IMG/VR virus record: IMGVR_UViG_3300032307_000821
Location: 1 to 31,789 of that record
Length of the DNA stretch: 31,789 nt
DNA from: a virus
Direction: 5' to 3' (one strand)
Part shown: positions 3,709 to 21,631 of the stretch, piece by piece
How positions within the stretch are numbered: position 1 is the stretch's first letter
Layout of the letters: each line of letters begins with the position of its first letter
Notes under the pieces: model-generated
Database searches by the model: none
What the model was told of the DNA's origin: nothing
Seen by the model: the letters and a program-made list of their open reading frames with translations, nothing else
Made by a program: the position numbers and the translations under genes

Positions 3709-4049
3709 TAAAGGAGCCAGACCATAGGTTTATTTGGTATTTATGTAAGACATTCGGAAAGACTCCAGACGACAATTTTTTTGAAGAAATGGATGAGTGG
3801 ATGTGGGCATGGATGTATCAAAGCTGGCTCCAGGATAAAGAAGAAGAGTACGATAAGTTTAAGAATTTTTCAATATTTATTGGATCTTTTTCAAACCCGC
3901 AAATGGCGCAATCTATTGCCAAACGTGATAAGCCTGATTATGAATCTGACGAAAAAGATGTTGAGAAGTCTGTTGAAAACATTCAGAAAATTGATGAATT
4001 TCTTGAAAAAGTACCAGAAAGAAGACGTAGGAGAAAAATTAATAGGTAA
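3705..4049 (+). CDS. tail assembly chaperone C-terminal extension, made by -1 frameshift (gpGT analogue)
   Basis: This 114-codon open frame lies -1 relative to the upstream gene. It begins IIKEPDHRFIWYLCKTFGKT and continues through a tryptophan-rich stretch (MDEWMWAWMYQSW) and an acidic/basic tail ending RRRRRKINR. The part before the first ATG (3789) is clearly coding and has no normal start codon with an SD. It is therefore expected to be made only as a fusion with the 207-aa chaperone, about 321 aa in all, by slippage at 3699-3705. In lambda-like systems this T domain recruits tube subunits to the chaperone-coated tape measure. Internal initiation at 3789 would give an 86-aa protein, but only a weak GAAGAA lies in front. 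The stop is two bases from the tape measure start. Confidence 0.8.
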   Translation: MIKEPDHRFIWYLCKTFGKTPDDNFFEEMDEWMWAWMYQSWLQDKEEEYDKFKNFSIFIGSFSNPQMAQSIAKRDKPDYESDEKDVEKSVENIQKIDEFLEKVPERRRRRKINR

Positions 4050-4051
4050 AA

Positions 4052-5986
4052 ATGGCTGATATAATTGATCCAAAAAAAGTACAAGAATCCATAAAATTAG
4101 TACAGGATTATTATAAAGCTATTGATGCTTTAGGTAAAGAAGTAAAAGAAGGTATAGATTCAAGTTGGAAATCAATAGAAGTTGCATTTGAAAATGCAAA
4201 TGGTGATGTTAAACAATTTTCAGAAAATATAAGAAATGCAACAAAAGATAATGAAGCTTTAAGAGTAGGTATTGCTGGTGGTTTAGGTTTAGCTACTGTT
4301 TCTATGCTTGGTTTAAGTAATGAAACTAGTTTTTTTAATGAAAAATTAAGCATTGGATCATCAACTGCAAATGAAATAAATCAAAATGTAAATAAAATTA
4401 AATCATCAATAGAATCAATATCAAAAAGTGATGGTTTAGGAAAATATTTTAGTGGAATTGGAAAAATATTATCTCAAAGTTTAAACTTAATTCCAGCAAT
4501 GAATTTTGCTGACACTATGGAAAATGAATTTTTAAGAGTTCAATCTAGTGTTGGAAACGCTTCAAATTTATTAACTGGCGTTGGTAGTCAAAAAGGACAA
4601 TTAATAGATTCTGGTTTAGATAGTGAGTTAACAAAATATATAAGTGTTGTTGCCGATTTAAGAAAAGCAAATAATTTAGGTCAAGAAGAAGCAAAAAAAT
4701 ATACAACCGACATAATGAAAATACCTGGCGCTTATCGCCAATTGTATACTGATGGTTCTGGAGTTTTGGGACAACTTTCATTAACTGATGCAGCAATCAA
4801 AATGGCTAGAGGTACTACTGGTGAATTTGATGATGCAGTAAAAGCTTTAACTACAACTTATAATAATTTCGGAAAAGAAAGTTTACCATCAGGTTTAGAT
4901 ATGTTATCAGCTACATATGAAGCTGCACAAATGCTTGGTATGAGGTTTGATGATGTAGAATCGTCAATAACTTCTATTACAAATCGTTTTGCTTCATTTG
5001 GTAATAATACACAAAGCTCTATTGATTTGTTTACAAACTTAAGTTTAGCTTTAGGTAAAACTGGAATTGGCATTAGTCAGCAAAAGCAAATCATTGACAG
5101 TATAACCGATTCTATTTATGGAATGAATCAAGCTCAAAAAAGTTTCATTTCTAGTCAAACTGGTGGTTCTGGTGGATTAATGGGAGCTTTCCAAATTGAT
5201 AAAATGTTAGCTTCTGGTGACGTTCAAGGTGTATATCAAAAAATACAAGAAACTCTTCAAAAGCAATTTGGAGAAATAACAACTCTTGATATGGCGGCAA
5301 GTTCAGAAAATGAAGCTGCAAAATATGAAAGACAATTGCAATTTTTACAAAGTGGTCCTTTTGGATCTTTGGTTAAAGATCGCGGTCAAGCAATGAAATT
5401 TTTAGGAGCAATGAGTTCCGGTATAGGTGGAGAAGATATAATTAGGGAAGGAGCAGCTTCCTCTGGTGCTTTGATTTCAGCTTCTCAAATAAATGAAAGA
5501 CAAGGTGGTTTAATAAATCAATTTGATGCTGATTTAGAAAAACAAAAAGCTTTATCAACTCTTGGTGCTGGATACTTAGGAAGAGAAACAATACCAACTG
5601 AATTAAAAGATTATCAAAGCAGAATGAGAAAAGAAGGTTCCGCTAGCGCTTTTGAAAATATAGACGCTACAGTTGTAAAGAATGTTGTTGATGAAATAAA
5701 TAATTCTTTTTTAGGATTAGCAGAATCAGCTGTTGATATAACAAGATCAATTACAGAATCAGCTAGTAGGTTAAAATCAGAATCAATTCTTAATAATATA
5801 CCAAAGCAAGGAACAGAAGTTATGACGCCAACAGGAACTAAAACGGTACAAGATATGGGAAATTATAAACCAGACTTATCAACAATAAAAATTGAAGATG
5901 GAACTTTATTAATTAAAATTGATAATAATGGTTCTGTTTCAACAATTAACCATGAAGTTAAAGCGGCTCTTGTTGGAGGTATGTAA
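4052..5986 (+). CDS. tape measure protein (candidate)
   Basis: This 644-aa protein directly follows the frameshifting chaperone pair, the diagnostic position of the tape measure gene. It is mostly helical with many Ser, Ala, Gln and Asn residues. The N-terminal region (about 1-75) is coiled-coil-like. A Gly/Ala/Leu-rich hydrophobic patch follows at about 73-92 (around GIAGGLGLATVSMLGL). The middle is Gly-rich and helical (around TGGSGGLMGAFQIDKM), and the last 60 residues form a beta-like tail (IKIEDGTLLIKIDNNGSVS). Tape measures set tail length at about 1.5 Angstrom per residue, giving roughly 95-100 nm here, reasonable for a myovirus. No lytic transglycosylase or peptidase motif is seen. 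The start is two bases after the chaperone stop; the last base of its TAA is the first base of the next ATG. Confidence 0.7.
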   Translation: MADIIDPKKVQESIKLVQDYYKAIDALGKEVKEGIDSSWKSIEVAFENANGDVKQFSENIRNATKDNEALRVGIAGGLGLATVSMLGLSNETSFFNEKLSIGSSTANEINQNVNKIKSSIESISKSDGLGKYFSGIGKILSQSLNLIPAMNFADTMENEFLRVQSSVGNASNLLTGVGSQKGQLIDSGLDSELTKYISVVADLRKANNLGQEEAKKYTTDIMKIPGAYRQLYTDGSGVLGQLSLTDAAIKMARGTTGEFDDAVKALTTTYNNFGKESLPSGLDMLSATYEAAQMLGMRFDDVESSITSITNRFASFGNNTQSSIDLFTNLSLALGKTGIGISQQKQIIDSITDSIYGMNQAQKSFISSQTGGSGGLMGAFQIDKMLASGDVQGVYQKIQETLQKQFGEITTLDMAASSENEAAKYERQLQFLQSGPFGSLVKDRGQAMKFLGAMSSGIGGEDIIREGAASSGALISASQINERQGGLINQFDADLEKQKALSTLGAGYLGRETIPTELKDYQSRMRKEGSASAFENIDATVVKNVVDEINNSFLGLAESAVDITRSITESASRLKSESILNNIPKQGTEVMTPTGTKTVQDMGNYKPDLSTIKIEDGTLLIKIDNNGSVSTINHEVKAALVGGM

Positions 5987-6993
5987 TGTCATTAAGACCA
6001 CCATTTACAGGAACTGGATTAAATTCTGCTGCAGCAGGGCTTATATCTAGTGCAACAAATTTAAGTGGATTTGGTTCAACTATTTTGGGTGGCTTTTCTG
6101 GAAATCAACCACCAACGGCAAATGGTAATGGACCAAGAGCAAATCAAATACCACCATTAAAAGGAGCGAATACTACTAGACAAATTATGAAATGGTTAGT
6201 TCCTGAACAACCAATTATATCAATGTATGTTAATCCTAAAAATGTTAGATATGACAATTCAAAAGATATAAAAACAACTCGTGTTAAAGGTGGTTATGCT
6301 TTTCAATATTTTGGAGAGTCTCTTTCTAAATTAACAATTTCTGGCACAACTGGAACTTCAGGTATTGAAGGAATAAATGTTTTAAATGATATTTATAGAA
6401 ATGAACAATTAATGTTTGATCCTTATGCTCTTACTTTAGCTGCTCAAAGAGACAGGATGGAACAATCAAGCTTTGATCAGTTATTATTTGGACAAGATGG
6501 TCCATTAGGATTAAATGGCGGAACTTTAGGTGATATAGCTTCAATTACAACAAGCATAATGAATGGTGGTAGATCAACAAATATTGTAAATTCGAGAACA
6601 AAACCAACTCTAGCATCTCTTGCGTTTACTGTAGAATTATATTGGTCAGGAGAAGTTTATCGTGGTTATTTTGAAAGTTTCAATGTAACTGAAGATGCTG
6701 GCAATTTAGGTTTATTTGATTATACAATGTCATTTGTCGTAACTCAAAAGAGGGGTTATAGAAGGAATTTTATGCCTTGGCATAAAAATCCAAATTTAGG
6801 TCCGAGCAATTGGGAAGATGGTGGTAGAAGATTAAGTTATGGTTATTTAATGGACAGTCCATCAGGAGTTCCAAATCAAAATAAACCATATATTTATGAT
6901 GACGTTGAATCTGGTTCTGGAAAAATAGTTAACAACTTAAGTGGAAGGATAGGCGAAGGCAATGGATCTTTGTCTAGTTTTTGGTTACCATAA
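5986..6993 (+). CDS. baseplate/tail-tip adaptor protein (candidate)
   Basis: This 335-aa protein has a 50-residue low-complexity N-terminus (Gly, Ser, Asn, Pro). It then has a beta-rich domain at about 75-290 with YVNPKNVRYDNSK followed by FQYFGESLSKLTISGTTGTS. That pattern, a strand naming the expected coordinates followed by a strand giving ISGTTG and an equatorial GIEGINVLNDIY helix, resembles small hub/adaptor proteins of contractile tails (XkdP/gp53-like group). The resemblance is by eye only. The region FTVELYWSGEVYRGYFESFNVTEDAGNLGLFDYTMSF (about 215-250) gives further beta strands. Position between tape measure and hub supports a role at the tube-baseplate junction. It overlaps its neighbours by one base on each side. 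Confidence 0.5.
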   Translation: MSLRPPFTGTGLNSAAAGLISSATNLSGFGSTILGGFSGNQPPTANGNGPRANQIPPLKGANTTRQIMKWLVPEQPIISMYVNPKNVRYDNSKDIKTTRVKGGYAFQYFGESLSKLTISGTTGTSGIEGINVLNDIYRNEQLMFDPYALTLAAQRDRMEQSSFDQLLFGQDGPLGLNGGTLGDIASITTSIMNGGRSTNIVNSRTKPTLASLAFTVELYWSGEVYRGYFESFNVTEDAGNLGLFDYTMSFVVTQKRGYRRNFMPWHKNPNLGPSNWEDGGRRLSYGYLMDSPSGVPNQNKPYIYDDVESGSGKIVNNLSGRIGEGNGSLSSFWLP

Positions 6994-9900
6994 TGGCATT
7001 TTTAGATAGTTTAAGAAATTTTGATTCAAATACTTTTTTATCAACAATCAATGAACAAGTTGGTTCTGGGGAAAACGTATCAAGATCTTTAGATTCAGTT
7101 GATCCGAACGACCCAAATAGAGTTGTTGCTTTTGGGTCATTAGGAAATTTTGCATCAAAAATAGATAATACAGCTCAAAGGTCTTATCTTGAATCTGGTT
7201 ACATTCGAAATATAAGACCAAGATATTTTGAAATTATGATGCAACAACCGGATGTAACAATCCTTGTTAAAAAAAGAATGTTTTCAACATTAATAGAAAA
7301 TTATGATGTTGAAAAAATGGATAGTGGTGATCGTGGTTTTTATAAATCTGCTAAAAGATTATTTCAAAATAAATGTCAAGCTATTTCTATCTACGAAAAA
7401 CTATCAAAAGTAGAAAAGGTTATTCAAAATAAAGGTGTACTAGATGATTTTTTCGTTCCTGTTTTAATTAGCGGAATTCAAACTCTTGAACATTTTGGTG
7501 TAAATATAGTAGATACAAAAACAAAAGATACACTGAATGAAATAAGAAAATTAAATGCTTTTTCTGAGCCACTAAATTATACAACTTGGTTAGTTGATCC
7601 AAGTACACCTTATGATTTTGGAGAAGGAACTGGCGTATTTGAACTAACTCTAGTAAGTTCAGTTACAACAAATTCTGGATTAAGATTAGGCTCTGGAAAT
7701 GGAAATTTAACAATTGAAGATCCTTACCATTTAATGATGATTACCCCAGAGGATATAGATAAAGCAATTGCTGATATATATAATCCTGCAAAAAACTCTC
7801 AATTATTTCAATTTTCTGAATCAGTATTGGCTGATCAAAATCAACAATTATTAAATAGATTAAATGCAGACCGACAAAGACGTGGAGTTCCTGGTATAAT
7901 AATAAGGACAAGCCCTTCTTCAAGAATATATAAACGTGTATCTGCATTTATAGATTTGGTTGGTAAAGAGATAATATTTAATTATGATCCAGGTATAGTT
8001 GGTATAAACGGAAATGTAACATTTGACTTTTCAGCTACAGATGTTTCTTCATCTTCATCAAATTTAAACGCTGCAGAAGCAGATCTTCTTTCTGATATAA
8101 TTAGAAATACTTATCAAATTATAAATCTAAGAAGGGATAAAGAAAGAGATTTAGATTTAGGTGCAATAGATGATACAACAGATCAAGGTATAAAATTAAA
8201 AAATGAAATAAGATATGTAAGAGAAAAAATGAGATTGCATTTCTTGAATAAAAACATAATTCAAGTTATGGATTCTGTACACGTTTATATGAATTCAAAC
8301 ACTATGATTGATTCAAAGGTTTCTGGTATAGATAGATCTGGTGTAACAAATTCTAGTAGTAACTTATTATCAAAGTTAAATTCAAATGTAAATAATTTAG
8401 AACAAAGCTTTAACAATTTGAAGGGTTTTTGGGGAGGTACAGACGCAGGTAGCTTTGTAGAACTTGAAAAATCAGCAATTGTTGGCCCAGATTTCCCAAC
8501 TTGGTTATGGGTTTCTATGAGAAATGATTTTACAAGACAGGCTGCTGGAACTCATGTTTTTGCTGGTCTTGTAAATTCTGTAACTGAAAATTTCTCTGAT
8601 GGTTTTTATACTTTAAATGTAAATATGAGTGATAATTCTCATTATTTTAATTTAGGTTTAATAAATAAAAAACCATCAGTAGATGTGTTAGAAAGAAATA
8701 TTTACGATCCATACACTCCTTTTGATTTAGATTTTGATCCAAGTGGTTTTGCAGTAGGTAGGACCCCAAAATTACTTCATGAAAATCAAGTTAGGCTTGA
8801 TTCGGGTTTAATAAAATTCAAAAACGGATCTAAATTTTTAGGTTCTCCAGCATCTATTGGTCTTTACGTTGTTGGCGATGATAGAAAAGACATTAATAAT
8901 TTAGGTAATGTACAAAAAATATTTTATGATCCAGATGGTTTTGTTTATAGATGGAAATCAGGAATAGGAACTTATACTTATAATGGCCCTAAATATTATG
9001 ATGCTTTTAGTCAAGGTGTATTCAGTCAAGGTTTAGGAACGCCAGCTATTACAAATAATATTTATGCTGGCCAGGATGTTATGAATGTTTTATCTTTATT
9101 AATATCTGGAGTTCCTTATAATTACAACACTTTCTTAAAAGCATCTATAGGTAGTGGTAATTTAAGTTTAAACAAAGTAAGTAACCAAAACGTAACAAAC
9201 ACAGAAATAGCAAGATCATTTTTTAAAGGTTTTATATCGGATTTAAAAAAGCAAAATGCAACTTGGGGAAACTTTGTTCCATTTAAAAAATTAATTATGA
9301 GTGAAAAAAGTTATCAATTCATGATTAATGGACAATTTACAATACAAACAGCAAATAAAGATATAGAAGATTTATTAAACCAAAGATCAAAAATATTTGA
9401 TACATTAACATTAGTTAATTCTGCTTTTGCAGATAATCCAACTCCTTATAGAGTTGGTACAGATGGCTCTTTACAACCAAGAATAAATTTAGATTCTAAT
9501 ATACAAGGTAGCGTTGAAGTTTTTGAAGCAATGAAAAAAATAAAAAACATTGATGATAAACTTGACAGAATCAATAGACAAATACAAAGCACAATTGCAG
9601 AAGCTAATACAAATAATGGTCAAATTAAAATTTTCGGAAATGACTTTTCTTTTGACCCAGAATATTCAGAATCAACAGCAACAAATACAGATGAAGAATT
9701 TCAAAGAGCAAGAATAAACTTAAGAAGAAAAACAAAATATTTAACTCAAAGAAGGTTATGGAAAGTAAAATCAAATGATGACTTTAATCTTTTAGTTATA
9801 GATGATACTTATGATAAAGATTATGACATTCAAGCTTTTGAAAAATCACTTGGTTCAATGGAACTTTTTAGAAGCGAATACGCAAATATTATGACCCAAA

Positions 9901-12149
9901 TAGATTCAGTTGCGTCTATATTAGGATTAGAAGTATTTGCTGATTCTCAAGGGCATATAAATGTAAAACCTCCAACATTTAATAAGGTTCCAAGTTCAGT
10001 ATTTACAAGATTAATTACTAGTGGTGAAAAACTTTACCCAAAGCAATTGGAAGATTTATTTGTTGGTCAAGCTGATTCTTTAATTGATAGATTAGAAATA
10101 TTAGAAGATGAAATAAGATTAAGAACAATTGCATTAGGTTATAATGATGATAGTTCTGCAGGAATATTTTTATCAGGTTCTGCTGTTCAAGGAAATGAAA
10201 ATGTTGCCTTTTCATTTTTAACTGATGAGCAAGGAAACTTTGGTTCAAAAGGAACTTCAGTAAAAACAATGATTTCAATGTCAAATCCTGACTTAAGAGA
10301 ATCTATTGAAAAAAGACCACTGAAACCTGTTTTAGAAAAAGTATCTGGACAATTAAGAAAAACAGCTTTATTCGATTCAGTTTCTCAAATAAAAACAGCT
10401 AGAGATAAATATATTACTAATGCAGACAATGCAAGCAGAGATAGATATAATACTGTAAAAATAAGACTACAACAAAAATCAGCAAGATCTTATCCTAATA
10501 TAAATGAATTAAGATCTAACGTAAGAGTTTCTGATGTAGGAAATAATTTAACACAAGGATCAATTTTAAAATTAACAAGAGAAATATCATCAAAAATAAC
10601 CGAAAGACAACAAATTATAAAAAGCTTATATAACGCTATTAAAAATATAGATGATGCTTCTGTAATAAATTCAAATGATTCGAATACAAAAAAGGCAGCT
10701 TTATTTCCTTCTTTATATAAGAAAGAAAAAATACCATCTGTACTTGAACATATGATTGAGGATGAAAACGAAGATGATCTTGGCCCAGGTTCTGGTGGCA
10801 GATATATTATAAAAGATGATCAAATTATTTCAATGAGCATTTCTGAAAACCCACCTGAATTTACAGCTATAGAAGTAAATGGATCTTTTTCTCAGGGTCA
10901 AACGAATGAATCTGGTTTTAACACTGGTACTGTTGGCGGTTTAAGTAACTTCCAAAGCAATGCATTGGCCGTTGATTATGATATGTGGAGAATGTATGGT
11001 TTTAAATATGGAAGCGCTGTTCCAGCTATATATTTTAATAATCCAGAAACTCAATGTGCTCCATTTGCAGTTTGGCAATTAAATAATCAAAGAAGGAAAA
11101 TTATTTCCGGAACGCTAACTATAATTGGCAACGAATATATGCAACAAGGTGAAGTTATTTATATAGAAAGTAGAGATTTGTTATTTTACGTAGAAAATGT
11201 CAGTCATAATTTTACTTATGGATCAAACTTCACAACAACATTAACTTTAACATATGGACATAATCCAGGAGAATATTTCCCTACTATGTTAGATATAATT
11301 GGTAAAGCTTTATATTCAAAAGCTATTTCCGCAAATTCTCATAAACATATAAGAGAAGGAAATTCTTTTGGTTATGATCATTTGGGAACTCTTGTTGTAG
11401 ATAGATTTAACGCAATTAATGCAAATGATCCATTAAAAAGATTGGTTGCGGGTAAATTTGGAGAAAAGAATAGAAATGTTTTATCAAACATATTATTATC
11501 ATTAAAATCTGCGGAGTTACAAGCAGCAACACCTCAGATTGAATTAAGAATTTATAAAAATTCAAAACAAAACAAACCAGCAACATCAGTTACAAATCAA
11601 CTTATTGGTATTTGCGAAGAAGTTAAAGCTTGGCTTTCAAATCCAACAAAAGAATCTTTATCTCCTGATAATAATTCTCTTTTACAAACATCAACATCTG
11701 TAACTCCAGATTTAGATGGAGAATTTTTAAAACCAGGATATGATATAAATTCAATGGTTATTACAAAAGAAATTGATGAAGAAGATCCTTATTCTCCTTC
11801 CGGTGAAGCATGGATGTATTCAGAAAATGTACTTTCTACAAATCCTGGTTTAAATTCTTACTTGCCAGATGTAACGGCAGATCAAATGGCAGGATCGGTT
11901 CAAGGAAGTCAAATAAATACAAACAATTCAAATACGAATGGTGTTACTGCAAACGCTTACTCAAATGCAAATAAAAAATATAAACAAGATGACATAAATA
12001 ATTATACTCCTACAGAAAGTGATGCGTTATATAGTAGTATAATTGATATTTGGATAAAATTTGTTCCAGTACCAGAAACTCCAGAAACATCAACTAGAAC
12101 TAACTTAGGAAATAATCAGTTACAAAATGTAAATAACCAAATAATATGA
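6993..12149 (+). CDS. giant baseplate hub protein
   Basis: I chose ATG at 6993 (MAFLDSLRNF), which overlaps the previous TAA by one base as elsewhere in this operon; a TTG at 6981 would add four residues but is less likely. The product is 1718 residues plus stop. Hub-like beta sections recur: KRVSAFIDLVGKEIIFNYDP near residue 318, a block around 520-555 (FAGLVNSVTENFSDGFYTLN) and the closing block near 1388-1435 (LLFYVENVSHNFTYGSN, then TTTLTLTYGHNPGEYFP). The last resembles the end of gp27/gpD/gp44-type hub proteins. Helical, charged segments lie between them (around 830-960 and 1070-1240). The C-terminus is Asn/Ser-rich and disordered-looking (near 1636-1662). Hubs form the trimeric ring between tube and spike, and the next gene is the spike. 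At 1718 aa it is several times the usual hub length, so it probably includes extra domains or fused neighbours. Confidence 0.7.
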   Translation: MAFLDSLRNFDSNTFLSTINEQVGSGENVSRSLDSVDPNDPNRVVAFGSLGNFASKIDNTAQRSYLESGYIRNIRPRYFEIMMQQPDVTILVKKRMFSTLIENYDVEKMDSGDRGFYKSAKRLFQNKCQAISIYEKLSKVEKVIQNKGVLDDFFVPVLISGIQTLEHFGVNIVDTKTKDTLNEIRKLNAFSEPLNYTTWLVDPSTPYDFGEGTGVFELTLVSSVTTNSGLRLGSGNGNLTIEDPYHLMMITPEDIDKAIADIYNPAKNSQLFQFSESVLADQNQQLLNRLNADRQRRGVPGIIIRTSPSSRIYKRVSAFIDLVGKEIIFNYDPGIVGINGNVTFDFSATDVSSSSSNLNAAEADLLSDIIRNTYQIINLRRDKERDLDLGAIDDTTDQGIKLKNEIRYVREKMRLHFLNKNIIQVMDSVHVYMNSNTMIDSKVSGIDRSGVTNSSSNLLSKLNSNVNNLEQSFNNLKGFWGGTDAGSFVELEKSAIVGPDFPTWLWVSMRNDFTRQAAGTHVFAGLVNSVTENFSDGFYTLNVNMSDNSHYFNLGLINKKPSVDVLERNIYDPYTPFDLDFDPSGFAVGRTPKLLHENQVRLDSGLIKFKNGSKFLGSPASIGLYVVGDDRKDINNLGNVQKIFYDPDGFVYRWKSGIGTYTYNGPKYYDAFSQGVFSQGLGTPAITNNIYAGQDVMNVLSLLISGVPYNYNTFLKASIGSGNLSLNKVSNQNVTNTEIARSFFKGFISDLKKQNATWGNFVPFKKLIMSEKSYQFMINGQFTIQTANKDIEDLLNQRSKIFDTLTLVNSAFADNPTPYRVGTDGSLQPRINLDSNIQGSVEVFEAMKKIKNIDDKLDRINRQIQSTIAEANTNNGQIKIFGNDFSFDPEYSESTATNTDEEFQRARINLRRKTKYLTQRRLWKVKSNDDFNLLVIDDTYDKDYDIQAFEKSLGSMELFRSEYANIMTQIDSVASILGLEVFADSQGHINVKPPTFNKVPSSVFTRLITSGEKLYPKQLEDLFVGQADSLIDRLEILEDEIRLRTIALGYNDDSSAGIFLSGSAVQGNENVAFSFLTDEQGNFGSKGTSVKTMISMSNPDLRESIEKRPLKPVLEKVSGQLRKTALFDSVSQIKTARDKYITNADNASRDRYNTVKIRLQQKSARSYPNINELRSNVRVSDVGNNLTQGSILKLTREISSKITERQQIIKSLYNAIKNIDDASVINSNDSNTKKAALFPSLYKKEKIPSVLEHMIEDENEDDLGPGSGGRYIIKDDQIISMSISENPPEFTAIEVNGSFSQGQTNESGFNTGTVGGLSNFQSNALAVDYDMWRMYGFKYGSAVPAIYFNNPETQCAPFAVWQLNNQRRKIISGTLTIIGNEYMQQGEVIYIESRDLLFYVENVSHNFTYGSNFTTTLTLTYGHNPGEYFPTMLDIIGKALYSKAISANSHKHIREGNSFGYDHLGTLVVDRFNAINANDPLKRLVAGKFGEKNRNVLSNILLSLKSAELQAATPQIELRIYKNSKQNKPATSVTNQLIGICEEVKAWLSNPTKESLSPDNNSLLQTSTSVTPDLDGEFLKPGYDINSMVITKEIDEEDPYSPSGEAWMYSENVLSTNPGLNSYLPDVTADQMAGSVQGSQINTNNSNTNGVTANAYSNANKKYKQDDINNYTPTESDALYSSIIDIWIKFVPVPETPETSTRTNLGNNQLQNVNNQII

Positions 12150-14182
12150 CAAATATATCTTTAAAAAGAAGAGGAACCATAATAGGTTATAAAGGTAACG
12201 GAAAGGTTCAAGTCCGTTTACAAGATGGTACTTCTTTAACAAATTATGATTATATTTGTGATTTACCAGTATCTTATACTAATCAATCTGGTGCATTTAT
12301 AGGTGGTTATCCAGAAACTTTTACTGAAGTTTATATAGAACAATCACAGGGACAATGGACTATTTCTGGTTATGCTGTTCCTGATAATATTTATAATGAA
12401 GATGCCATATCTTCTGGAGTAATATCTCTGGATACTATGGCTGATTTAAAACCCGGTAGATTATTAATTCAATCAAATAATGCTATATCAAAAATATATT
12501 TAGATTCAAAAGAAATACATTCTGGAAATAATATAAATTATACAAAACAAAATATAAATGATTCAATTATAAATACAAAATTTGATACTAAATGGGAATT
12601 ATTATCTTCATCTAGATTAGTAGAAGGTCCAATAAGAAGAAACGTTTCTGATCAATATATTTCGTTTGATTCTAATGACATTTCAAAATACAGAAATGTT
12701 GGAATGGATAATATTTCAAACGTTTCAACGATTACAACTCAAGATTATTACAGAAACTTACCATTAAATGAATCAAGAAAAGTTTTTTTTGAATTTGAAG
12801 AAAAATCAGATGGAAATTCATTTACAGATGATTTCAATGAATCATTAAAATATTCTAGTCAAATTAATTTAAATTCTTATACGCCGTTAAGAACGGATAC
12901 AAAAGATACATCTTTTGATTTAAATTTATATGCTCCAAATAAATTAATAGAAAAAATAGAAGGAACTGGTGTTGATAATTTATCTAATATAATAGATTTA
13001 AATAGAAATATATTGCCAATAGGGAATGAATCTTTTGGGTTTCAAGAAAATGAAAATAAAACAAATGCTTTTGCAAATATAAGGGCAATCCACAGAAAAT
13101 CTCTAGCTTTTCATTTTGAAATAAATGCAAGAAAATCATTAAATAATTATGATGTTTATCAAAATAAACCATCATCCAATAGAGATGATTATTCAAGAGA
13201 TAGATCTACTTTATTTTTTGATATTGATAAAGAAGGACAATTTAAAGCCAATATACCAATGTCTTCTGAGATAGGTAATATAGGTTTACCAACAAGATAT
13301 ATAAATTCTTCAGTTTTAGCCTATGAACAAAAGAAAATAAGAAACCCAAATGAATATTTTGTAAATGAAAATAATATAGATATATTTATTGAAGATTATT
13401 CGAACAATAAACCTAAAGTTGATAATTCCGGCAATTTAAATGAAATTAATCCTTATCGTGGAGTTAATCTTATTGATGAGTTTGGTAATTTAGCAAAAGA
13501 TCGATTTTCAGATTTACCAATAAAATTAAACACAGTATTTCATGATATTACAAAAGCAGGATTTCAATTCACAAAAGAAAGAGCAGAAATTGGACCTATA
13601 TTTGGTTTTATGCAAGATTATTTATCAATATCGTCAAGAATAGATAATATTCAATATGATAATATAGTTGCTCCAGAAATAATTACAAGCGGATCAAATG
13701 CAAATGCTGGTGGTAGATCTGGAACAATAAATCTTGATGGTTCTTTAAATATTTCAATTGGAGCAAATACGGTAGATAGACAAAGTTTATGGCTTGATAC
13801 TGCTGGCGGAATCGTCTCGACTATAGGTAGAGATAAAAGAGGAATAAGTTATTCATCAACTTTAGATGGTGACGTTGTAATTCAAATAGGTGGTCCTACA
13901 ATAGGATCCTCTGAAGATAGTAGGTTTTCAAAAGAAAATAATGCCTCTAAAGCTGGCGTTCTTGATATTAGAATTTTAGATAAAGATGGATCTCAAGCAT
14001 CAATATTGAGATTTGATGAAAAAGGTTTAACCATATATTCTTTTGGAAGAACGGAATTTGCTTCTCAACAAGGAATGGTTTTTCGAACGAATGGCGATAT
14101 GTTATTCGAAGCAGAAAATATAGGTTTTCATTATGCAACAACCCCAAGATATATTAAAAGAAATGGAGTTCCAGAAATATAA
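12146..14182 (+). CDS. baseplate spike / cell-puncturing protein, gpV/gp5-like
   Basis: This 678-aa protein is predicted to form the central spike. The N-terminal 85 residues read RGTIIGYKGNGKVQVRLQDG, then EVYIEQSQGQWTISGY, a pattern matching the OB-fold of gpV, gp5 and VgrG proteins. The C-terminal 200 residues have short repeated polar strands with Gly turns (NLDGSLNISIGANTVDRQS, DGDVVIQIGGPTIG, ILRFDEKGLTIYSFGRTEF), consistent with a triple-stranded beta-helix. The middle (about 110-450) is Asn/Asp/Ser-rich and not recognised; no lysozyme motif is seen there. No PAAR-type tip is visible in the last residues, so a separate tip protein may exist. It overlaps the hub gene by four bases (ATGA), keeping hub and spike synthesis coupled. 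Confidence 0.75.
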   Translation: MTNISLKRRGTIIGYKGNGKVQVRLQDGTSLTNYDYICDLPVSYTNQSGAFIGGYPETFTEVYIEQSQGQWTISGYAVPDNIYNEDAISSGVISLDTMADLKPGRLLIQSNNAISKIYLDSKEIHSGNNINYTKQNINDSIINTKFDTKWELLSSSRLVEGPIRRNVSDQYISFDSNDISKYRNVGMDNISNVSTITTQDYYRNLPLNESRKVFFEFEEKSDGNSFTDDFNESLKYSSQINLNSYTPLRTDTKDTSFDLNLYAPNKLIEKIEGTGVDNLSNIIDLNRNILPIGNESFGFQENENKTNAFANIRAIHRKSLAFHFEINARKSLNNYDVYQNKPSSNRDDYSRDRSTLFFDIDKEGQFKANIPMSSEIGNIGLPTRYINSSVLAYEQKKIRNPNEYFVNENNIDIFIEDYSNNKPKVDNSGNLNEINPYRGVNLIDEFGNLAKDRFSDLPIKLNTVFHDITKAGFQFTKERAEIGPIFGFMQDYLSISSRIDNIQYDNIVAPEIITSGSNANAGGRSGTINLDGSLNISIGANTVDRQSLWLDTAGGIVSTIGRDKRGISYSSTLDGDVVIQIGGPTIGSSEDSRFSKENNASKAGVLDIRILDKDGSQASILRFDEKGLTIYSFGRTEFASQQGMVFRTNGDMLFEAENIGFHYATTPRYIKRNGVPEI

Positions 14183-14204: not shown

Positions 14205-16250
14205 ATGCCGTGTAATCCATCAGCAAATACATTAAATCCTCCATACGTACCACCGATAGATATACCCGGTTTTGGTTTAGCCATATCTCCAATACAAATT
14301 CCAGTTCCTGGATTTGAATTTCCAAATGATTTTCCTCAAACAATTTTAGATTTTATAAATAACTTAACAATTCCTTGGGTTGGTGGAAATTTTTCACCAA
14401 ATCTTGATGATTTATCAAATAGTATATTAAAAGCATTAAGTAATCTTTTTACAATGATTGCTCCTTTTTTGTCATTATATAATTTTTTTCAAGCTTTATT
14501 AAATTTAATAATATGTATTATAGAAGTTATTTGTGCAATAGCTAATCCTTTTGCTTTAGTTGCTGCTGTTATTAAATTATTTAAAACATGTATACCTCCA
14601 TTTTTAAATTTATTTCCATGGATTGCTTTAATAATAATGATATTATCAATATTATTATTGATAATAGCTTTGATAGAATATATTTTAGCTAGAATATTAC
14701 AATTAATAGAAGCATTACTAGCTAACTTGATAATACTAGCAAATGGAGCTTCTTTACAGGATGCTGAATCAACTGCCGCTGCCGCAATTAAAATTGCCTC
14801 TTTATTATGTTTAATTGAAAATTTAATGGCCGTATTTTCTGCTATAGCAGCAATTATGTCAATTATTGATGCTTTATCTAGACTTGCCGGATTTACAATT
14901 TGTGGACCAAGTTCTGGGTGTTGTGGGAATGATATTTGTCCACCATTTATTAGAAATAACCCCAATGGAATCACGGGTACTTTAGGAGAATTATTATACT
15001 ATAGAGAAATTGATCCTAGTTTTCCAACAAACTTCTTTGATCGTGCTGAAAGTTGGCAATTCTATAATGAAGATTTAAGTGCAGAATATATATTTAGAGA
15101 TATAATAACTCCAGTTGCAAATGAAAATGGAGAGTTTGGTGGAATTTTTTGGCCTGATGGAATATCTTTTCCATCAAATACTGTAAATAGAGAAGCTCCA
15201 TATAATCTTGATTTAACTATTAAAAGTTTTGATCCAAGATTTTTTCATCCAACCGATTTAGGTGGACCAAGAAACTTTAATATAAATAAAGCAATTGTTC
15301 AATATAAACCAGTTATTGGAGTTTATAATCAAGCAAATCAACTTGATGTATCAACTAATCCAAATGGAACATTAAATTTAATAGGAGGTTTAGTTACAGA
15401 AGAGGATGGAACTCCTTATATTGTAAATGGTTCGCAAGCTACTTTACAAACATTTATTCATAGTCCAATAAATAATTCTGGAACTGCACCACCAACTGAT
15501 GATGGTTATTATATACCAAATATAGATTTTACATTAAATATAAATCATCCAGCTTTGATAAAATATTCTTTAATTACTTTAGGTTGTGTACCAGAAGTTG
15601 CTGCAGAAACAGCTTTAATTAATGCTACAACTGATTTCAGGTCAGCTTTTGATAAGGGTGGAAGTTTACCAAATATACCCAACGCACAAAGGTGCGTAAG
15701 TAATGCTATATCAAGAATAAGATCTGATGTTTCTATAGAAAATGTATCTGAACAGGCAGCAGTAATAGAAACATGTTTAAGAGATTTATTAAATGAAACA
15801 ACTACATCATTTTGTTCATTTTTAAAAGTTGCAGTAAGTCCTTTTAATAGCATATTTGATATTTCTCCAGATTTACAATTTGTAACTAGAGAAATAGAAG
15901 TTAAAGTAACACTAAATGACGCAAATGGAATAAATGTTGCCCAGAAAATACCTGATGGATGTGATCCTTCCCAATGGTTAGAGGGTAATGTTACTTTTGG
16001 AGAAATCTCAGAATTTGTATTTGATGGTTATGGTCAATTTTTGGCATATATAAGTAGCGATCAACCCGGTTCTGGTGAACTTACTGTAAGTTGGGATAAT
16101 AATATATTATCAAGAAAAGTAAACCAAGACAATCTCAATGAACCGACCGCAGTTGAACCTATAGTTTTACCATATACATTTGTTGGTACAGTATTGTCAG
16201 ATCCAATTCCAAGAAGAGGCGTTGATGATATTTCTATATCGGAGAATTAA
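14205..16250 (+). CDS. multi-pass hydrophobic virion protein, unknown function
   Basis: This 681-aa protein has an unusual build for a baseplate operon. Residues 1-65 are rich in Pro, Ile and Phe (PPYVPPIDIPGFGLAISP). Residues 68-231 are overwhelmingly hydrophobic, in blocks at about 81-125, 134-180 and 191-231 (for example WIALIIMILSILLLIIALIE), enough for about four to six membrane helices. A Cys-rich turn follows (CGPSSGCCGNDIC, 233-245), then about 430 residues of soluble beta-rich sequence ending RGVDDISISEN. There is no signal peptide in the usual sense. It lies between the spike and the wedge genes and is coupled to the next gene by a TAATG overlap. A part carried in the virion that enters the host membrane and forms a channel for DNA is an attractive guess but unproven. 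I do not recognise the family. Confidence 0.6.
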   Translation: MPCNPSANTLNPPYVPPIDIPGFGLAISPIQIPVPGFEFPNDFPQTILDFINNLTIPWVGGNFSPNLDDLSNSILKALSNLFTMIAPFLSLYNFFQALLNLIICIIEVICAIANPFALVAAVIKLFKTCIPPFLNLFPWIALIIMILSILLLIIALIEYILARILQLIEALLANLIILANGASLQDAESTAAAAIKIASLLCLIENLMAVFSAIAAIMSIIDALSRLAGFTICGPSSGCCGNDICPPFIRNNPNGITGTLGELLYYREIDPSFPTNFFDRAESWQFYNEDLSAEYIFRDIITPVANENGEFGGIFWPDGISFPSNTVNREAPYNLDLTIKSFDPRFFHPTDLGGPRNFNINKAIVQYKPVIGVYNQANQLDVSTNPNGTLNLIGGLVTEEDGTPYIVNGSQATLQTFIHSPINNSGTAPPTDDGYYIPNIDFTLNINHPALIKYSLITLGCVPEVAAETALINATTDFRSAFDKGGSLPNIPNAQRCVSNAISRIRSDVSIENVSEQAAVIETCLRDLLNETTTSFCSFLKVAVSPFNSIFDISPDLQFVTREIEVKVTLNDANGINVAQKIPDGCDPSQWLEGNVTFGEISEFVFDGYGQFLAYISSDQPGSGELTVSWDNNILSRKVNQDNLNEPTAVEPIVLPYTFVGTVLSDPIPRRGVDDISISEN

Positions 16251-17893
16251 TGTCAACTTTAGAACAAAATAAAGTAAATAAAAATAAATCAGATCAATGG
16301 ATAGAAGAAATTGATTCTGTAAATGACATTAATAGCTTATATATAAATTTTATAAAACCAATAGATTTATATCGTAGCGTTGCAAAATCTGAAGTTTCTA
16401 TAGAAAATACATTTAATTCAACAAATCAAAGTTATGATAAAAACATCGACGTAAACAATTTAAATGAAAGTAGAGCTAATGCTTTTTATAGGATGATTGG
16501 TTTTCCTGTTGCTTCTGAAAAAGGATTTTATAATCCTGGACATGATCCAAACCAATCAAAAACAAAAGAAGCTAGAGATTCAATAGATAAAAGTTTAGTT
16601 GGAACTAATTATTTTAATTTAATGAAATTAAGAGAAAATTATTATAAAAATAAATTAAATATATTTAATAACCAAGATGATTCTACAATAGCTTATCAGT
16701 TTTTAATGCTTGATGTAAAGCCATTTTTGATTGCAAAAAAAATAGGCGAACCATTTGAATTTGATGAACAATCTATTTCTTTAAATTCAAGAAAAGAAAA
16801 ACTAGATCAAATGAATGTTAGCGATAATTCCAATTTTTGGAATATCAAACATATATTAAAGCCATTTATTGTAAACCCAGACGTTTTAAAGGTATGTGAT
16901 GATCAAAAAAGAAGTTGCGTTCCATTTTTATCAGATAAACAATCAACCCAACTTGAATCAAATTTCTATCTAAAAAGACCAGCTATTGAAAAAATAATAA
17001 GAGAAAGGCTAAAAGTAAACAATCAAGAAGATGATTTAAATAAAATAAATTCTTTGTTAAGTTTAGCTGGAGTTTCTTCTTTAGAAGAATTAAATGAGCC
17101 AGACTCTATATTCACTGATGAATTAAATATAATAAATAAAAATCAAAGTTACAAGCAAATATCAAATATTTTAAATTATACAAAATCAATAAGATATTGC
17201 TTAAGAGTTTTAGATAATTCTATTGTTAATGCAAGAGTTTTATCTTCAAATCTTGAAGTTTTTTGTATGCCAAGCACAAAGGGTCCTGAATTTGGCGGAA
17301 AAACAGCTTTAAATACAAGAAATTTATTTAAAGAAGTAAATGAGGATAAAACTAAAAAATCAAAGTTAGATACAGAAAAAGCAATATTAGAATTAAGAAA
17401 GTTAGTTGGTTTATTTTCTTCAGAAAATTCTTCCGGAGAAGTTGAAAATCAAGAATATTATTTTGGACCAGGGTCATTTGCAACACAAAAAGACCCAGAA
17501 CCTCAAATACAAAATATTGAACAAAAACAAAATGAAAAGGGAAAACAAATTATTTCATATTTAAAAAATATAGAAATAATAACTGGAGAAGTTTCTGGTT
17601 TAGGTCTAATTGATGTTTTAGCTACTTATATGGCACTTTGGTCTATTGATATTAAATATTTAATTGGGTTTTTGGATGATGAATCTTTGTTAAGGTTGTC
17701 TAAAGATGTTAATTTTAGAGAAAACTTTGAGGTTTCATTACAGATTTCTGGAGTAAGACCTTCTATAAAAGAAGTTTTATCTGAATATGAAAGGATATTT
17801 TTTGGCATATTAGAGTACGTAGATAAAGTTAATTCTCAAATTAAACAAAATCCAATTTATAAAAACAGAGGAAAAACTGGGAGCCTAATATAA
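16250..17893 (+). CDS. baseplate-operon protein of unknown function
   Basis: This 547-aa protein is mainly helical and rich in Asn, Lys, Asp and Ser, with no membrane segment. Conserved-looking features include YRMIGFPVASEKGFYNPGHD near residues 80-100, a WNIKHILKPFIVNPDVLKVCD block near 198-225 with a second Cys in RSCVPF, and a hydrophobic helical part near the end (GLIDVLATYMALWSIDIKYL). Its stop and start overlap both neighbours by one base. It lies between the hydrophobic protein and the gp25-like gene, so a baseplate wedge or hub accessory part is likely by context. No family is recognised and no enzymatic motif is apparent. Confidence 0.55.
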   Translation: MSTLEQNKVNKNKSDQWIEEIDSVNDINSLYINFIKPIDLYRSVAKSEVSIENTFNSTNQSYDKNIDVNNLNESRANAFYRMIGFPVASEKGFYNPGHDPNQSKTKEARDSIDKSLVGTNYFNLMKLRENYYKNKLNIFNNQDDSTIAYQFLMLDVKPFLIAKKIGEPFEFDEQSISLNSRKEKLDQMNVSDNSNFWNIKHILKPFIVNPDVLKVCDDQKRSCVPFLSDKQSTQLESNFYLKRPAIEKIIRERLKVNNQEDDLNKINSLLSLAGVSSLEELNEPDSIFTDELNIINKNQSYKQISNILNYTKSIRYCLRVLDNSIVNARVLSSNLEVFCMPSTKGPEFGGKTALNTRNLFKEVNEDKTKKSKLDTEKAILELRKLVGLFSSENSSGEVENQEYYFGPGSFATQKDPEPQIQNIEQKQNEKGKQIISYLKNIEIITGEVSGLGLIDVLATYMALWSIDIKYLIGFLDDESLLRLSKDVNFRENFEVSLQISGVRPSIKEVLSEYERIFFGILEYVDKVNSQIKQNPIYKNRGKTGSLI

Positions 17894-18324
17894 TGTCTTT
17901 CGATTTAAAAATAAAAGATGGAGATCTTGTTGTAGGTACGAATGGTGATCTTGAAATAGTAGAGAATGCCGATAAACTTATACAAGATATATTAAAAATA
18001 CTTATGTGTCCTCTTGGTTCAAATGTATTTTTTCCTTGGTATGGTTCAAATTTATCAGGAACTTCCGTTGGTCAAATATTTGATGAACAATTTAAACAAG
18101 ATATTATAGCTCAACAAATTAATTCAAATTTGGAAACTTTACAAAAGTTGCAACAACAACAAATGGAAAACGGACAAAGAGTTACTCCTAATGAATTATT
18201 AGCAGCAATACAATCTGTTTCAGTAGAAAGAAATACTGTAGATCCAACTTTTTTTAGTATAGATGTAAACGTTATTACGAAAGGATTTCAGGTTCGTACA
18301 GCAAGTTTGTCAGTAGGTTTGTAA
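17893..18324 (+). CDS. gp25-like baseplate wedge protein
   Basis: This 143-aa protein matches the GPW/gp25 family in size and layout. It opens with paired strands (DLKIKDGDLVVGTNGDLEIV), then a helix (NADKLIQDILKILMCPLGSN) and the family-typical segment VFFPWYGSNLSGTSVGQ, where other members have a Gly/Tyr-containing loop before the conserved helix. The C-terminal strands (FFSIDVNVITKGFQVRTASL) complete the fold. In T4, gp25 is the core wedge protein that links the sheath to the baseplate. The gene precedes the gpJ-like gene, the same order as in P2, Mu and T4-type tails. A short Gln-rich linker (LQQQQME) is unusual but does not disrupt the fold. Confidence 0.85.
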   Translation: MSFDLKIKDGDLVVGTNGDLEIVENADKLIQDILKILMCPLGSNVFFPWYGSNLSGTSVGQIFDEQFKQDIIAQQINSNLETLQKLQQQQMENGQRVTPNELLAAIQSVSVERNTVDPTFFSIDVNVITKGFQVRTASLSVGL

Positions 18325-18352: not shown

Positions 18353-21300
18353 ATGGTTAGAATACGCAGCCAAAATGAACTGGTATTAAATTTGCTTGAT
18401 TTTTATAGGGTTGCCCAACCAAACCTAGATTTAAAGCCTGGTTCTGTATCCAGAGATTTATTAGTTGACGGACCTTCCGCTCAAGTTTCAAGACTTTATA
18501 ATGAATTACAAAGAATATCAACATTACAATCCTTAAGATTAGCTTTAGGCTCTGACCTAGATAAATTAGGTTCAAATTTTGGCCAGTCAAGAAGACAAGG
18601 TACAAAAGCTAGTGGTCCCGCTCTACTTACATTTAAAGAAATAAATAGAGACATTCCAATTCAAAAAGGTGATTTGGTTTATGCTAATAATGGAGCTACA
18701 TTTTTAATATCAAATAATTTAGTTATAAGCCAAGTTTATGCAAATACATATAAAGCAATAGCTACTCAATATAGATCTGATTTGGACTTAGCTAATATAA
18801 CTGATCAATATGCAGTAGAGGTTTTAGTTGAAGCAAGTTCTCCTGGTGTTCAGGGTAACATATCTAAATATAATTTGTCTAGCACAAGTATTTCAGGCAT
18901 ATCTAATGTTACAAATGCATTTCCTTTTGGTGGCGGATCTTCTGCAGAAGATGATGCAACATTTAGAAGTAGAATATTAGCTGTATTTTCTGGAGCAAAT
19001 ACAGGAACTTCTGTTGGTTATAAAAATGCTGCTTTGCAAGATCCTTCAACTTTAGATGCTTTAGTAGTTGAGCCTGGTGATGTTTTAATGACTAGAGATG
19101 GTACATTAGTTTATACTAATCCAAATACTGGAGAAAAAACTATTATATCAGAAGGGTCTGGTGGAAAAGTTGATGTTTATGTTTTAGGCACCAGGCTTTT
19201 GGAAATTATAGAATCATACATTTATATAGATAAAAGTAACACTGGAGATCCAACTAGTGAAAGAAATGATTTTGTTCTTGGTCAAATTCAAGGTGATGAA
19301 AATAAAACTGTATCAAGAAGAAGATTAGAAAATTTAGAAGATGGAATTTTACCAAATCAACCAGTAAATAATATATTACAAGTTTCAGGTTCGGTAACTG
19401 GTTCTAATTATTTACCAAAATCTGTTGATGAATATGGTAGAGTTTCTGGAAATTATGAATTAATTTTAGATAATGGGGTATATGGTGGTTCACCTTGGGG
19501 TTTTGATAGATTAAGATGGATAGATAATAAAATTATAAATCTCAATGAGGATAAAAGCAAAACATTATTTAATGGACAAGATACTTTAACTTATCCAAAT
19601 GTTTTAAAAATAAATAACGTAACACAAAGAATATCTGTAGTTAATGAAAACAGTAAAGTTAATCCTAGTGATAGGTCTATCATTCAACTTTCTCATTCAC
19701 CTATAACAAACGTTACCAGGGTCTTTAATGCTACTACTGGTGAAAGATATATTGTTACAAATCAAAATTTAGATGGCTCTGGTAATATAAATAACTCTGG
19801 AAGAATAAGAGTTTCAGGTAGCAGCTTACCATCTGTAAGTGATACATTGCAAGTAGATTATACATGGATATTTAGTTATGATCCTTACCTTGATTTTGAT
19901 GGTAAATTATCTAATTTAAATCCAAACCCAAGATCTGTAGAAAACAGTATTGATTGGGGCTATTCAAATGCAGTTAGAAGAGAGCAATCTATATTAATAA
20001 GTAGTGGTTCATTTTTATCATGCACTGTAACTCATCCAATCAGCTCTGTAATTAACGTAAATGTTTTTACACAAGAAGCAACAAATGTTACATTTGTAAA
20101 TGGTAGGTTGGCTGTAATAGTATCTCAAATAGCAAATAATGTAATATCTATAATTAGAGATTTTGATGGGACAGATCTTTGGAATTCATCTAAAAATGAT
20201 GGAAGTTTTAGTAATTATGTAATATTTTTACCAACAGATGGTATTGCTGATTTTAATGATTCCGTAATAGTTACATATAATGCTATTGATGTTTATAATA
20301 CAGATACTCCAGGAAGCTTTGATGATAATATAATAACAATAAATCCAACATTTACTGCCGTTAGTGGTTCTATTGTTGAAGTTAATTATATTTCGAATGT
20401 ATCAAATATATTACCTAACACTCAATTAAATCAACTTCCTGCATTAAAAAATATAAATGCTTTCAATACTGTATCTTCCACAAATATTGGTAATCAACCA
20501 TGTTCAAATTTATATGGAATGTCTGGTGACATAATACAAAATTTAAGACAAGCTCCTTCAAATTTATCTTTAAATATATCCGGTTCAATTTCTCCCGGTG
20601 TTATTACTGTAAATGGTACAAGCATTAATAAATCTGCAAGTGTGGTTTTACCTATAGGAACTTCTGGTTTAACTGTAGATTTATCATCTTTAATTAGAAA
20701 GTCACTTGGATTAAATTCTAATGGAAATATACCTTCTAATTTAGAATTAATACGTGTTGTTTCTGTGGAAAAAGTAGAAACTGCATCAAATTTAGAAGTT
20801 TTAAATGTACTTAATACTTATGATTTAAAGGGTTATGTATTAAAAAATAATAATTTCTTTAAAAGCGAATCTATTATTGATACACCACAATTAGCACAAA
20901 GTCAAGGAAGGAATTTATTAAATAATACTCAATTTAGATTACCATCTACAACTAATAATGAAGAAAATGCTCCACAAATAGGTGATAGATTAAGAGTTAC
21001 TTTTTATTATTGTTTATATAATGATTCTGAAAATGTATTGTTTTCTAGAGCTGGAACATTAGTTACAAATAAAAAATACGAATCTGTTAATTCAATATCT
21101 ATCTCTAGCGGATTTACCTCAGCTGGAAGTCAAAATGCTACATTAAGTGTAACCAATTTTAATCAACCATTAACTGGCTCAAGATATGTTGGTATATATG
21201 ATTATACAGGACCAATACCAAATGAAAGAATATCTATAAGATATAATTTAAATAAATTAATTGGAGATGTTACGTTAAATTTAGAAACAGTTAGACCAAT

Positions 21301-21631
21301 TACAGCTGATGTTTTAGCAAAACAATCAACTGCAATATTAGTTGATACAACTATAAATATAGTTTTATTTACTGAATTCTTAGCAAACGCAGCAACGGTT
21401 AAGCAAAACGTTCAAGACGCAGTAACTGCAGCATTAAATCCACCAAAGCTAAATACAACTATAGATGCTTCTGATTTAGTGGTAATTGCACAGGGAATTC
21501 AAGGTGTTGATAGAGCTAGAGTTCTTTATTTTAATAAAGCTAATGAATCTGGTTCTGTACTTAGCATTTCAGCTGGAAAATCAGAATATATTCAAGCTAA
21601 CACAGTTACAATAAATATCGAGACACGATGA
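18353..21631 (+). CDS. gpJ/gp6-like baseplate wedge protein with inserted beta modules
   Basis: This 1092-aa protein belongs to the baseplate J-like group. The N-terminus shows the family pattern: DFYRVAQPNLDLKPGSVSRD, the helix after it, LGSDLDKLGSNFGQSRRQG, then GASSPGVQGN-like and SSAEDDATFRSRILAVFSG at about residues 200-220. The C-terminal 80 residues (VKQNVQDAVTAALNPPKLNT, then SDLVVIAQGIQGVDRARVL) complete the wedge domain. Between them lies a long beta-rich insertion of about 600 residues, not present in P2 gpJ. It contains the motifs SPITNVTRVFNATTGERY (P450) and FDGTDLW (D605), both of which have counterparts in the next protein. In P2 and T4 these proteins build the wedge ring around the hub. 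The gene has an AAGGA ribosome-binding site and overlaps the next gene by four bases (ATGA). Confidence 0.8.
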   Translation: MVRIRSQNELVLNLLDFYRVAQPNLDLKPGSVSRDLLVDGPSAQVSRLYNELQRISTLQSLRLALGSDLDKLGSNFGQSRRQGTKASGPALLTFKEINRDIPIQKGDLVYANNGATFLISNNLVISQVYANTYKAIATQYRSDLDLANITDQYAVEVLVEASSPGVQGNISKYNLSSTSISGISNVTNAFPFGGGSSAEDDATFRSRILAVFSGANTGTSVGYKNAALQDPSTLDALVVEPGDVLMTRDGTLVYTNPNTGEKTIISEGSGGKVDVYVLGTRLLEIIESYIYIDKSNTGDPTSERNDFVLGQIQGDENKTVSRRRLENLEDGILPNQPVNNILQVSGSVTGSNYLPKSVDEYGRVSGNYELILDNGVYGGSPWGFDRLRWIDNKIINLNEDKSKTLFNGQDTLTYPNVLKINNVTQRISVVNENSKVNPSDRSIIQLSHSPITNVTRVFNATTGERYIVTNQNLDGSGNINNSGRIRVSGSSLPSVSDTLQVDYTWIFSYDPYLDFDGKLSNLNPNPRSVENSIDWGYSNAVRREQSILISSGSFLSCTVTHPISSVINVNVFTQEATNVTFVNGRLAVIVSQIANNVISIIRDFDGTDLWNSSKNDGSFSNYVIFLPTDGIADFNDSVIVTYNAIDVYNTDTPGSFDDNIITINPTFTAVSGSIVEVNYISNVSNILPNTQLNQLPALKNINAFNTVSSTNIGNQPCSNLYGMSGDIIQNLRQAPSNLSLNISGSISPGVITVNGTSINKSASVVLPIGTSGLTVDLSSLIRKSLGLNSNGNIPSNLELIRVVSVEKVETASNLEVLNVLNTYDLKGYVLKNNNFFKSESIIDTPQLAQSQGRNLLNNTQFRLPSTTNNEENAPQIGDRLRVTFYYCLYNDSENVLFSRAGTLVTNKKYESVNSISISSGFTSAGSQNATLSVTNFNQPLTGSRYVGIYDYTGPIPNERISIRYNLNKLIGDVTLNLETVRPITADVLAKQSTAILVDTTINIVLFTEFLANAATVKQNVQDAVTAALNPPKLNTTIDASDLVVIAQGIQGVDRARVLYFNKANESGSVLSISAGKSEYIQANTVTINIETR

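Follow-up and report, generated by a model that had tools for sequence, protein, structure and literature searches.

The 31,789-nt window analysed here (31.8 kb; the whole of IMG/VR virus record IMGVR_UViG_3300032307_000821) encodes, directly downstream of a putative tail spike, a protein of 681 residues that joins a membrane-type helical module to a beta-rich C-terminal part. We propose, at roughly even odds (a probability of about 0.5), that this protein, here called X, is a tail-tip structural protein of huge contractile-tailed phages which inserts in the host cytoplasmic membrane and aids in forming the conduit for DNA. The module of X, its place in the operon and its conservation fit delivery into the host membrane; from these we infer location in the virion, release on contraction, membrane insertion and channel activity.

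To our knowledge, the passage of DNA of contractile-tailed phages through the host cytoplasmic membrane is poorly described. The usual suspect for this step is the flexible tape-measure protein, which is hard to study. X is a concrete candidate for the component that passes the DNA through the cell membrane of the host and, if the proposal is true, a compact, separately encoded and strongly conserved one, amenable to expression, reconstitution and imaging. It also defines a protein family that is new to Pfam, PHROGs, NCBIfam and the named phages, and that is present on many environmental huge-phage contigs.

The tail operon and the place of X

The window contains a contractile-tail operon in the order tube, chaperone-like ORFs, tape-measure protein, tube initiator, hub, spike, X, Y, gp25, J and large fibre-like proteins (genes from the tape-measure protein to J, and the parts of X, are all on the + strand). 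The tube-like protein is encoded at 2350-2985. A putative tape-measure protein (4052..5986) is recognised by its position and a weak match to PHROG 10613 (E 0.0097) and contains no transmembrane (TM)-type segment, and the putative tail tube initiator (5986..6993) matches PF23980 with an E value of 0.0015, under the curated cut-off. The putative baseplate hub (1717 aa; 6996..12149), which served as an independent bait, is assigned by position, and the putative spike (12146..14182), directly 5' of X, by position, beta-rich sequence and conserved adjacency to X; the best PDB profile match of the latter is a CIS spike at an insignificant E of 0.19. The spike, hub and tape-measure labels, positional or weakly supported, are thus putative.

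X itself (14205..16250) is an open reading frame beginning with ATG, a start codon supported by an N-terminal sequence (M-P-C or M-x-P-C) that the family shares. It is followed by Y (547 aa; 16250..17893), a putative product with no assigned role, by a gp25-like sheath initiator or wedge protein (17893..18324; Pfam PF10934, E 2.3e-5, under the curated cut-off; PHROG 2669, E 1.9e-14) and by a baseplate J-like wedge protein (18353..21631; Pfam PF04865, E 8.4e-18; PHROG 6, E 8e-29). An earlier note on this DNA had placed X between spike and wedge genes, and the profile matches of gp25 and J bear this out. The same note regarded X as translationally coupled to both neighbours. On the downstream side the ATG of Y overlaps the stop codon of X by 1 nt, consistent with coupling, whereas X begins 22 nt past the spike stop, so upstream coupling is at best plausible.

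Y is conserved along with X, evolves faster than X and, in most relatives, has a moderately hydrophobic helix close to the C-terminus. It had no match in the databases, its PDB profile search gave nothing meaningful, and comparison of the X and Y family profiles revealed no homology between them.

Three further features of the window were observed. The tail chaperone pair (3085-4049) resembles a -1 programmed frameshift, with A AAA AAA directly before the stop of the first ORF and the second frame uninterrupted over 3693-4049. An HNH-type endonuclease gene lies at 104-1516, and genes of this type are recurrently inserted among the baseplate genes of related loci. The 982-aa tail-end protein (28245-31193) combines a type I dockerin pair (PF00404, E 3.8e-9) with 11 cysteines, which is unusual among phage proteins.

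A conserved family next to the spike

Direct searches with the window X protein alone found nothing, and the family was reached through its neighbour J and then with profiles. The J search led to two contigs, of 435 kb and 46 kb, on which X (50-54% identity) occupies the corresponding position. At least 116 IMG/VR loci encode relatives of X; 80 were kept and 68 non-redundant copies aligned. Complete members have 661-767 residues, and many of the contigs carrying them measure 200-481 kb, the largest being 481 kb. A contig of 383 kb that carries one relative had been binned with a Chitinophagales MAG, a weak hint of a Bacteroidota host.

X is invariably found just downstream of the spike, in a near-fixed order of tape measure, tube initiator, hub, spike, X, Y, gp25 and J. 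A search with the hub only, in which the 80 best hub matches were examined, recovered X in all 54 loci that included the spike and continued for more than 300 nt past it; outside these 80, there may be more distant hubs that lack X. X was single-copy in each of the 20 records searched for this, 18 of them without an in-frame stop; the other two each had one in the matched stretch, possibly upstream of the true start. X has the fixed membership of a tail/baseplate operon expected of a virion structural protein. At one locus (L028:9511-12291) an ORF identified by eye as an IS200/IS605-like transposase separates X from the spike, and neither Y nor gp25 is in its usual place.

No homologue of X was found in Pfam, PHROGs (above noise), NCBIfam, the PDB sequences or 50,697 phage records, and two relatives, including a member of the most divergent branch, likewise had no match among the phage records. 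PDB profile searches with X and with the hub gave nothing meaningful.

The hydrophobic module

Hydrophobicity was measured as the Kyte-Doolittle mean over 19-mer windows. The peak value of X, 3.29, is the strongest in the window, where the other likely genes reach at most 1.55, save for one segment of 1.85 in a 2204-aa protein. The contrast holds across the family, with a median peak of 3.32 for 79 copies of X against at most 1.83 for the tape-measure protein, tube initiator, hub, spike, Y, gp25 and J. Residues 68-231 had been described as near-continuously hydrophobic. Averaging over 68 relatives resolves this stretch into three TM-grade segments (residues ~94-113, ~138-158 and ~200-221), but the stretch is not uniformly membrane-like, as amphipathic helices occupy ~115-134 and ~159-183.

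In the structure model described below these segments belong to four helices. Helix 1 (residues 73-110; 14421..14534) includes the first TM-grade segment and the invariant C104, acidic residue 107 and C110, and helix 2 (115-134; 14547..14606) is amphipathic and positively charged, with the invariant C129. Helix 3 (138-183; 14616..14753) is fully apolar over residues 138-158 and then amphipathic over 159-183, and helix 4 (187-225; 14763..14879) carries the invariant K196 and the third TM-grade segment. The family-mean hydropathy of segment 138-158 exceeds 3 with almost no polar face, some 20 residues being apolar on nearly every side (moment 0.18, mean hydrophobicity 0.88). The long helices, of 38-46 residues, are longer than a simple membrane span.

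The module is also the best conserved part of X. Residues 61-232 are almost indel-free across the 68 sequences and have a mean entropy of 1.42 bits, compared with 1.93-2.11 bits in the C-terminal domains; C104, the acidic residue 107 (Glu or Asp), C110, C129, P131, P138, K196 and C233 are invariant. Close pairs of X differ mostly at third codon positions, more markedly in the module than elsewhere, and the module is under strong purifying selection. Its hydrophobicity is conserved over genomes of 27-50% GC. An artefact of AT bias was considered and rejected, since the segments are kept in relatives of 45-50% GC and the codon changes show purifying selection. Taken together, the membrane-like module, the baseplate-operon placement and the strong conservation that had singled out X all hold.

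Structure model and cysteines

The AlphaFold2 monomer computed from the 68-sequence alignment has a mean pLDDT of 85.7 and a pTM of 0.74; with three sequences the pLDDT was 41 and the model unusable. A Pro/Gly-rich N-terminal arm (residues 1-60; 14205..14384) with a near-invariant Cys3, mostly of low confidence, precedes the four helices. These are followed in the model by a beta-rich domain (~256-446; 14970..15542), a helical domain with the conserved C461, C497 and C524 (~448-543, or more narrowly 463-543; 15546..15833) and a terminal beta domain, with no long coiled coil. Foldseek matched X at probability 1.0 to Ig-like domains of invasin, intimin and filamin (Big-1/filamin-type); beta strands and weak profile matches suggest that the Ig-like domain spans residues ~550-660 (15852..16184). 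Against PDB and BFVD, Foldseek returned no soluble-bundle match for X and no significant viral match.

The Cys-rich turn that had been noticed after the hydrophobic stretch (residues 233-245; 14901..14939) is real, as each of C233, C239, C240 and C245 occurs in 67-68 of the 68 relatives. In all, eight near-invariant cysteines lie within or adjoin the hydrophobic module, and the cysteine content of X, 2.0 per 100 aa against at most 0.6 in its neighbours, is conserved. The pairs 547/636, 3/202, 497/524 and 239/240 are gained and lost jointly; 547/636 is concordant in 68 of 68 rows, with only about three changes on the tree. The cysteine content and paired gain and loss, with few independent events, are suggestive only of disulfides.

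X and the tape-measure proteins

X shares with tape-measure proteins the possession of TM-type hydrophobic segments, of which it has three, and gives weak matches to PHROG tape-measure families. The best E value was 1e-4 in the forward direction and 0.01 with reversed sequences, and the similarity appears to be mostly compositional. X was rejected as a tape-measure protein, as it follows the spike rather than lying between the tail chaperones and the hub, and as a homologue of one, as hhalign against the putative tape-measure profile of the same phages gave a probability of 0.1%.

None of the 55 putative tape-measure ORFs of the X-bearing phages has a 19-mer of 2.0 or above (highest 1.80). Because these putative tape-measure proteins have no TM-type helices, X is the obvious membrane-active tail component of this group. 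Among known phages, TM-type segments in the tape-measure protein number three in P2 gpT, one in T4 gp29 and none in Mu or Bacillus phage G. Mu and phage G thus have neither a TM-type tape-measure protein nor, in the regions read, an X, which implies that a dedicated TM protein is not generally needed. Furthermore, the T4 baseplate wedge protein gp7 holds a TM-scale segment (2.07), so hydrophobicity alone does not prove insertion.

A model for X and its alternatives

In the model that we favour, X would be built into the central baseplate beside the spike, with the beta/Ig-like C-terminal part as a possible docking portion, and partner proteins would shield its hydrophobic helices before contraction. 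Contraction of the sheath would then push X, spike and tube through the envelope. Helices 1, 3 and 4 may insert into the cytoplasmic membrane while the positively charged amphipathic helix 2 would lie at its surface, the acidic residue 107 and K196 could be either a buried charge pair or pore-facing residues, and several copies of X may form or line the passage for DNA. This proposal draws on a hydrophobicity far above that of the neighbours, the conserved module, the fixed adjacency to the spike, tape-measure proteins without TM segments and the precedents of diffocin and the type VI secretion system (T6SS). Set against it are the missing match in named phages, the Mu and phage G precedent, the T4 gp7 segment, the compositional nature of the tape-measure similarity and the over-long helices. 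We put forward tentatively a more specific form, in which X is a dedicated spike-associated pore protein, separate from the tape-measure protein, that serves as the genome's conduit through the cytoplasmic membrane; it would be held ready in the baseplate, stabilised by cysteines, and in some of these phages a small chaperone of its own would shield it.

Several of these observations would also suit a soluble protein. X could be a structural hub or plug whose helices pack on each other and on those of further copies, as a trimer or hexamer, inside the baseplate or the lumen of the tube, without ever entering a membrane. A tightly packed core would agree with the strict, near indel-free conservation and the many invariant residues, the helices exceed a membrane span and are partly amphipathic, the eight near-invariant cysteines suggest a rigid and perhaps disulfide-locked unit, and a wedge protein, T4 gp7, likewise has a TM-scale segment. 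Yet helix 3 lacks a polar face over about 20 residues, an unusual feature even in a buried helix, and the best matches in PDB and BFVD are Ig-like domains rather than any soluble bundle. We regard a soluble role as rather unlikely, if well worth weighing.

A role of X in the membrane of the infected cell, as an inner-membrane platform for hub and baseplate assembly or in the timing of lysis, without ejection, seems improbable to us. The first hydrophobic helix (~94-113) could be a signal anchor, and a C-terminal domain placed in the periplasm, where disulfides form, would agree with the wealth of conserved cysteines; but X is invariably encoded amid structural genes, with the spike on one side and the wedge genes on the other, ends in an Ig-like domain such as virion parts commonly have and is far bigger than a holin. 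Holins are small (about 60-150 aa) membrane proteins of lysis cassettes; as a protein of 661-767 aa encoded in a baseplate operon, X was rejected as one. That X is instead an effector carried by the spike and acting on the infected cell, for example in superinfection exclusion or envelope remodelling, is very unlikely. The locus does resemble a T6SS layout of spike, small chaperone and TM-domain effector, but effectors usually vary, whereas X is present in 54 of 54 hub loci with room for it and is most conserved in its TM part, and no toxin domain, PAAR or prePAAR was found in it.

Comparison with known systems

In the T6SS, effectors borne by the spike have TM domains at their N-termini, which are shielded by a small chaperone from the adjacent upstream gene (PMC7773334). 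Like the TM-domain effectors with Eag chaperones (Tse6, RhsA; PMC7773334), X has an N-proximal TM region and a gene on the spike side; unlike them, it has neither PAAR or prePAAR nor a toxin domain and is universal within its phage group. A PAAR-type tip was rejected, with a Pfam PAAR in 0 of 68 members and no AAR sequence in X. In 36 loci, outside the lineage of the window, a conserved ORF of ~118 aa lies between spike and X (e.g. L075:9561-9974 and L060:9627-9974); it has no match in Pfam, and its position recalls an Eag-type chaperone.

Disulfide-stabilised contractile tails exist in the Agrobacterium phage Milano, whose contractile-tail proteins are likewise Cys-rich (2.1% cysteine in its structural proteins and ~2.0% in X; PMC10811340). 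The Milano network spans sheath, tube and baseplate, whereas here a high cysteine content is confined to X and the 982-aa protein of the window, and the disulfides are predicted. Bacillus phage G is the closest named relative for the J and tube proteins of the window; unlike the X locus, it encodes no strongly hydrophobic protein between its tape-measure and J genes.

Tape-measure proteins have been described as ejected and membrane-inserted in work on CIS effectors (PMC13277306), and the diffocin tape-measure protein (CD1366), with five predicted TM helices, has been proposed to enter the target membrane and form a 15-helix pore there (PMC10996793). X resembles P2 gpT and CD1366 in being a contractile-tail protein with a multi-helix hydrophobic segment of similar hydrophobic make-up, but differs in having its own gene beside the spike, with a candidate tape-measure gene upstream, and in showing no long coiled coil in the model. 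The membrane role proposed for the TM part of the diffocin tape-measure protein would, in the phages described here, fall to X, the product of a separate gene adjacent to the spike.
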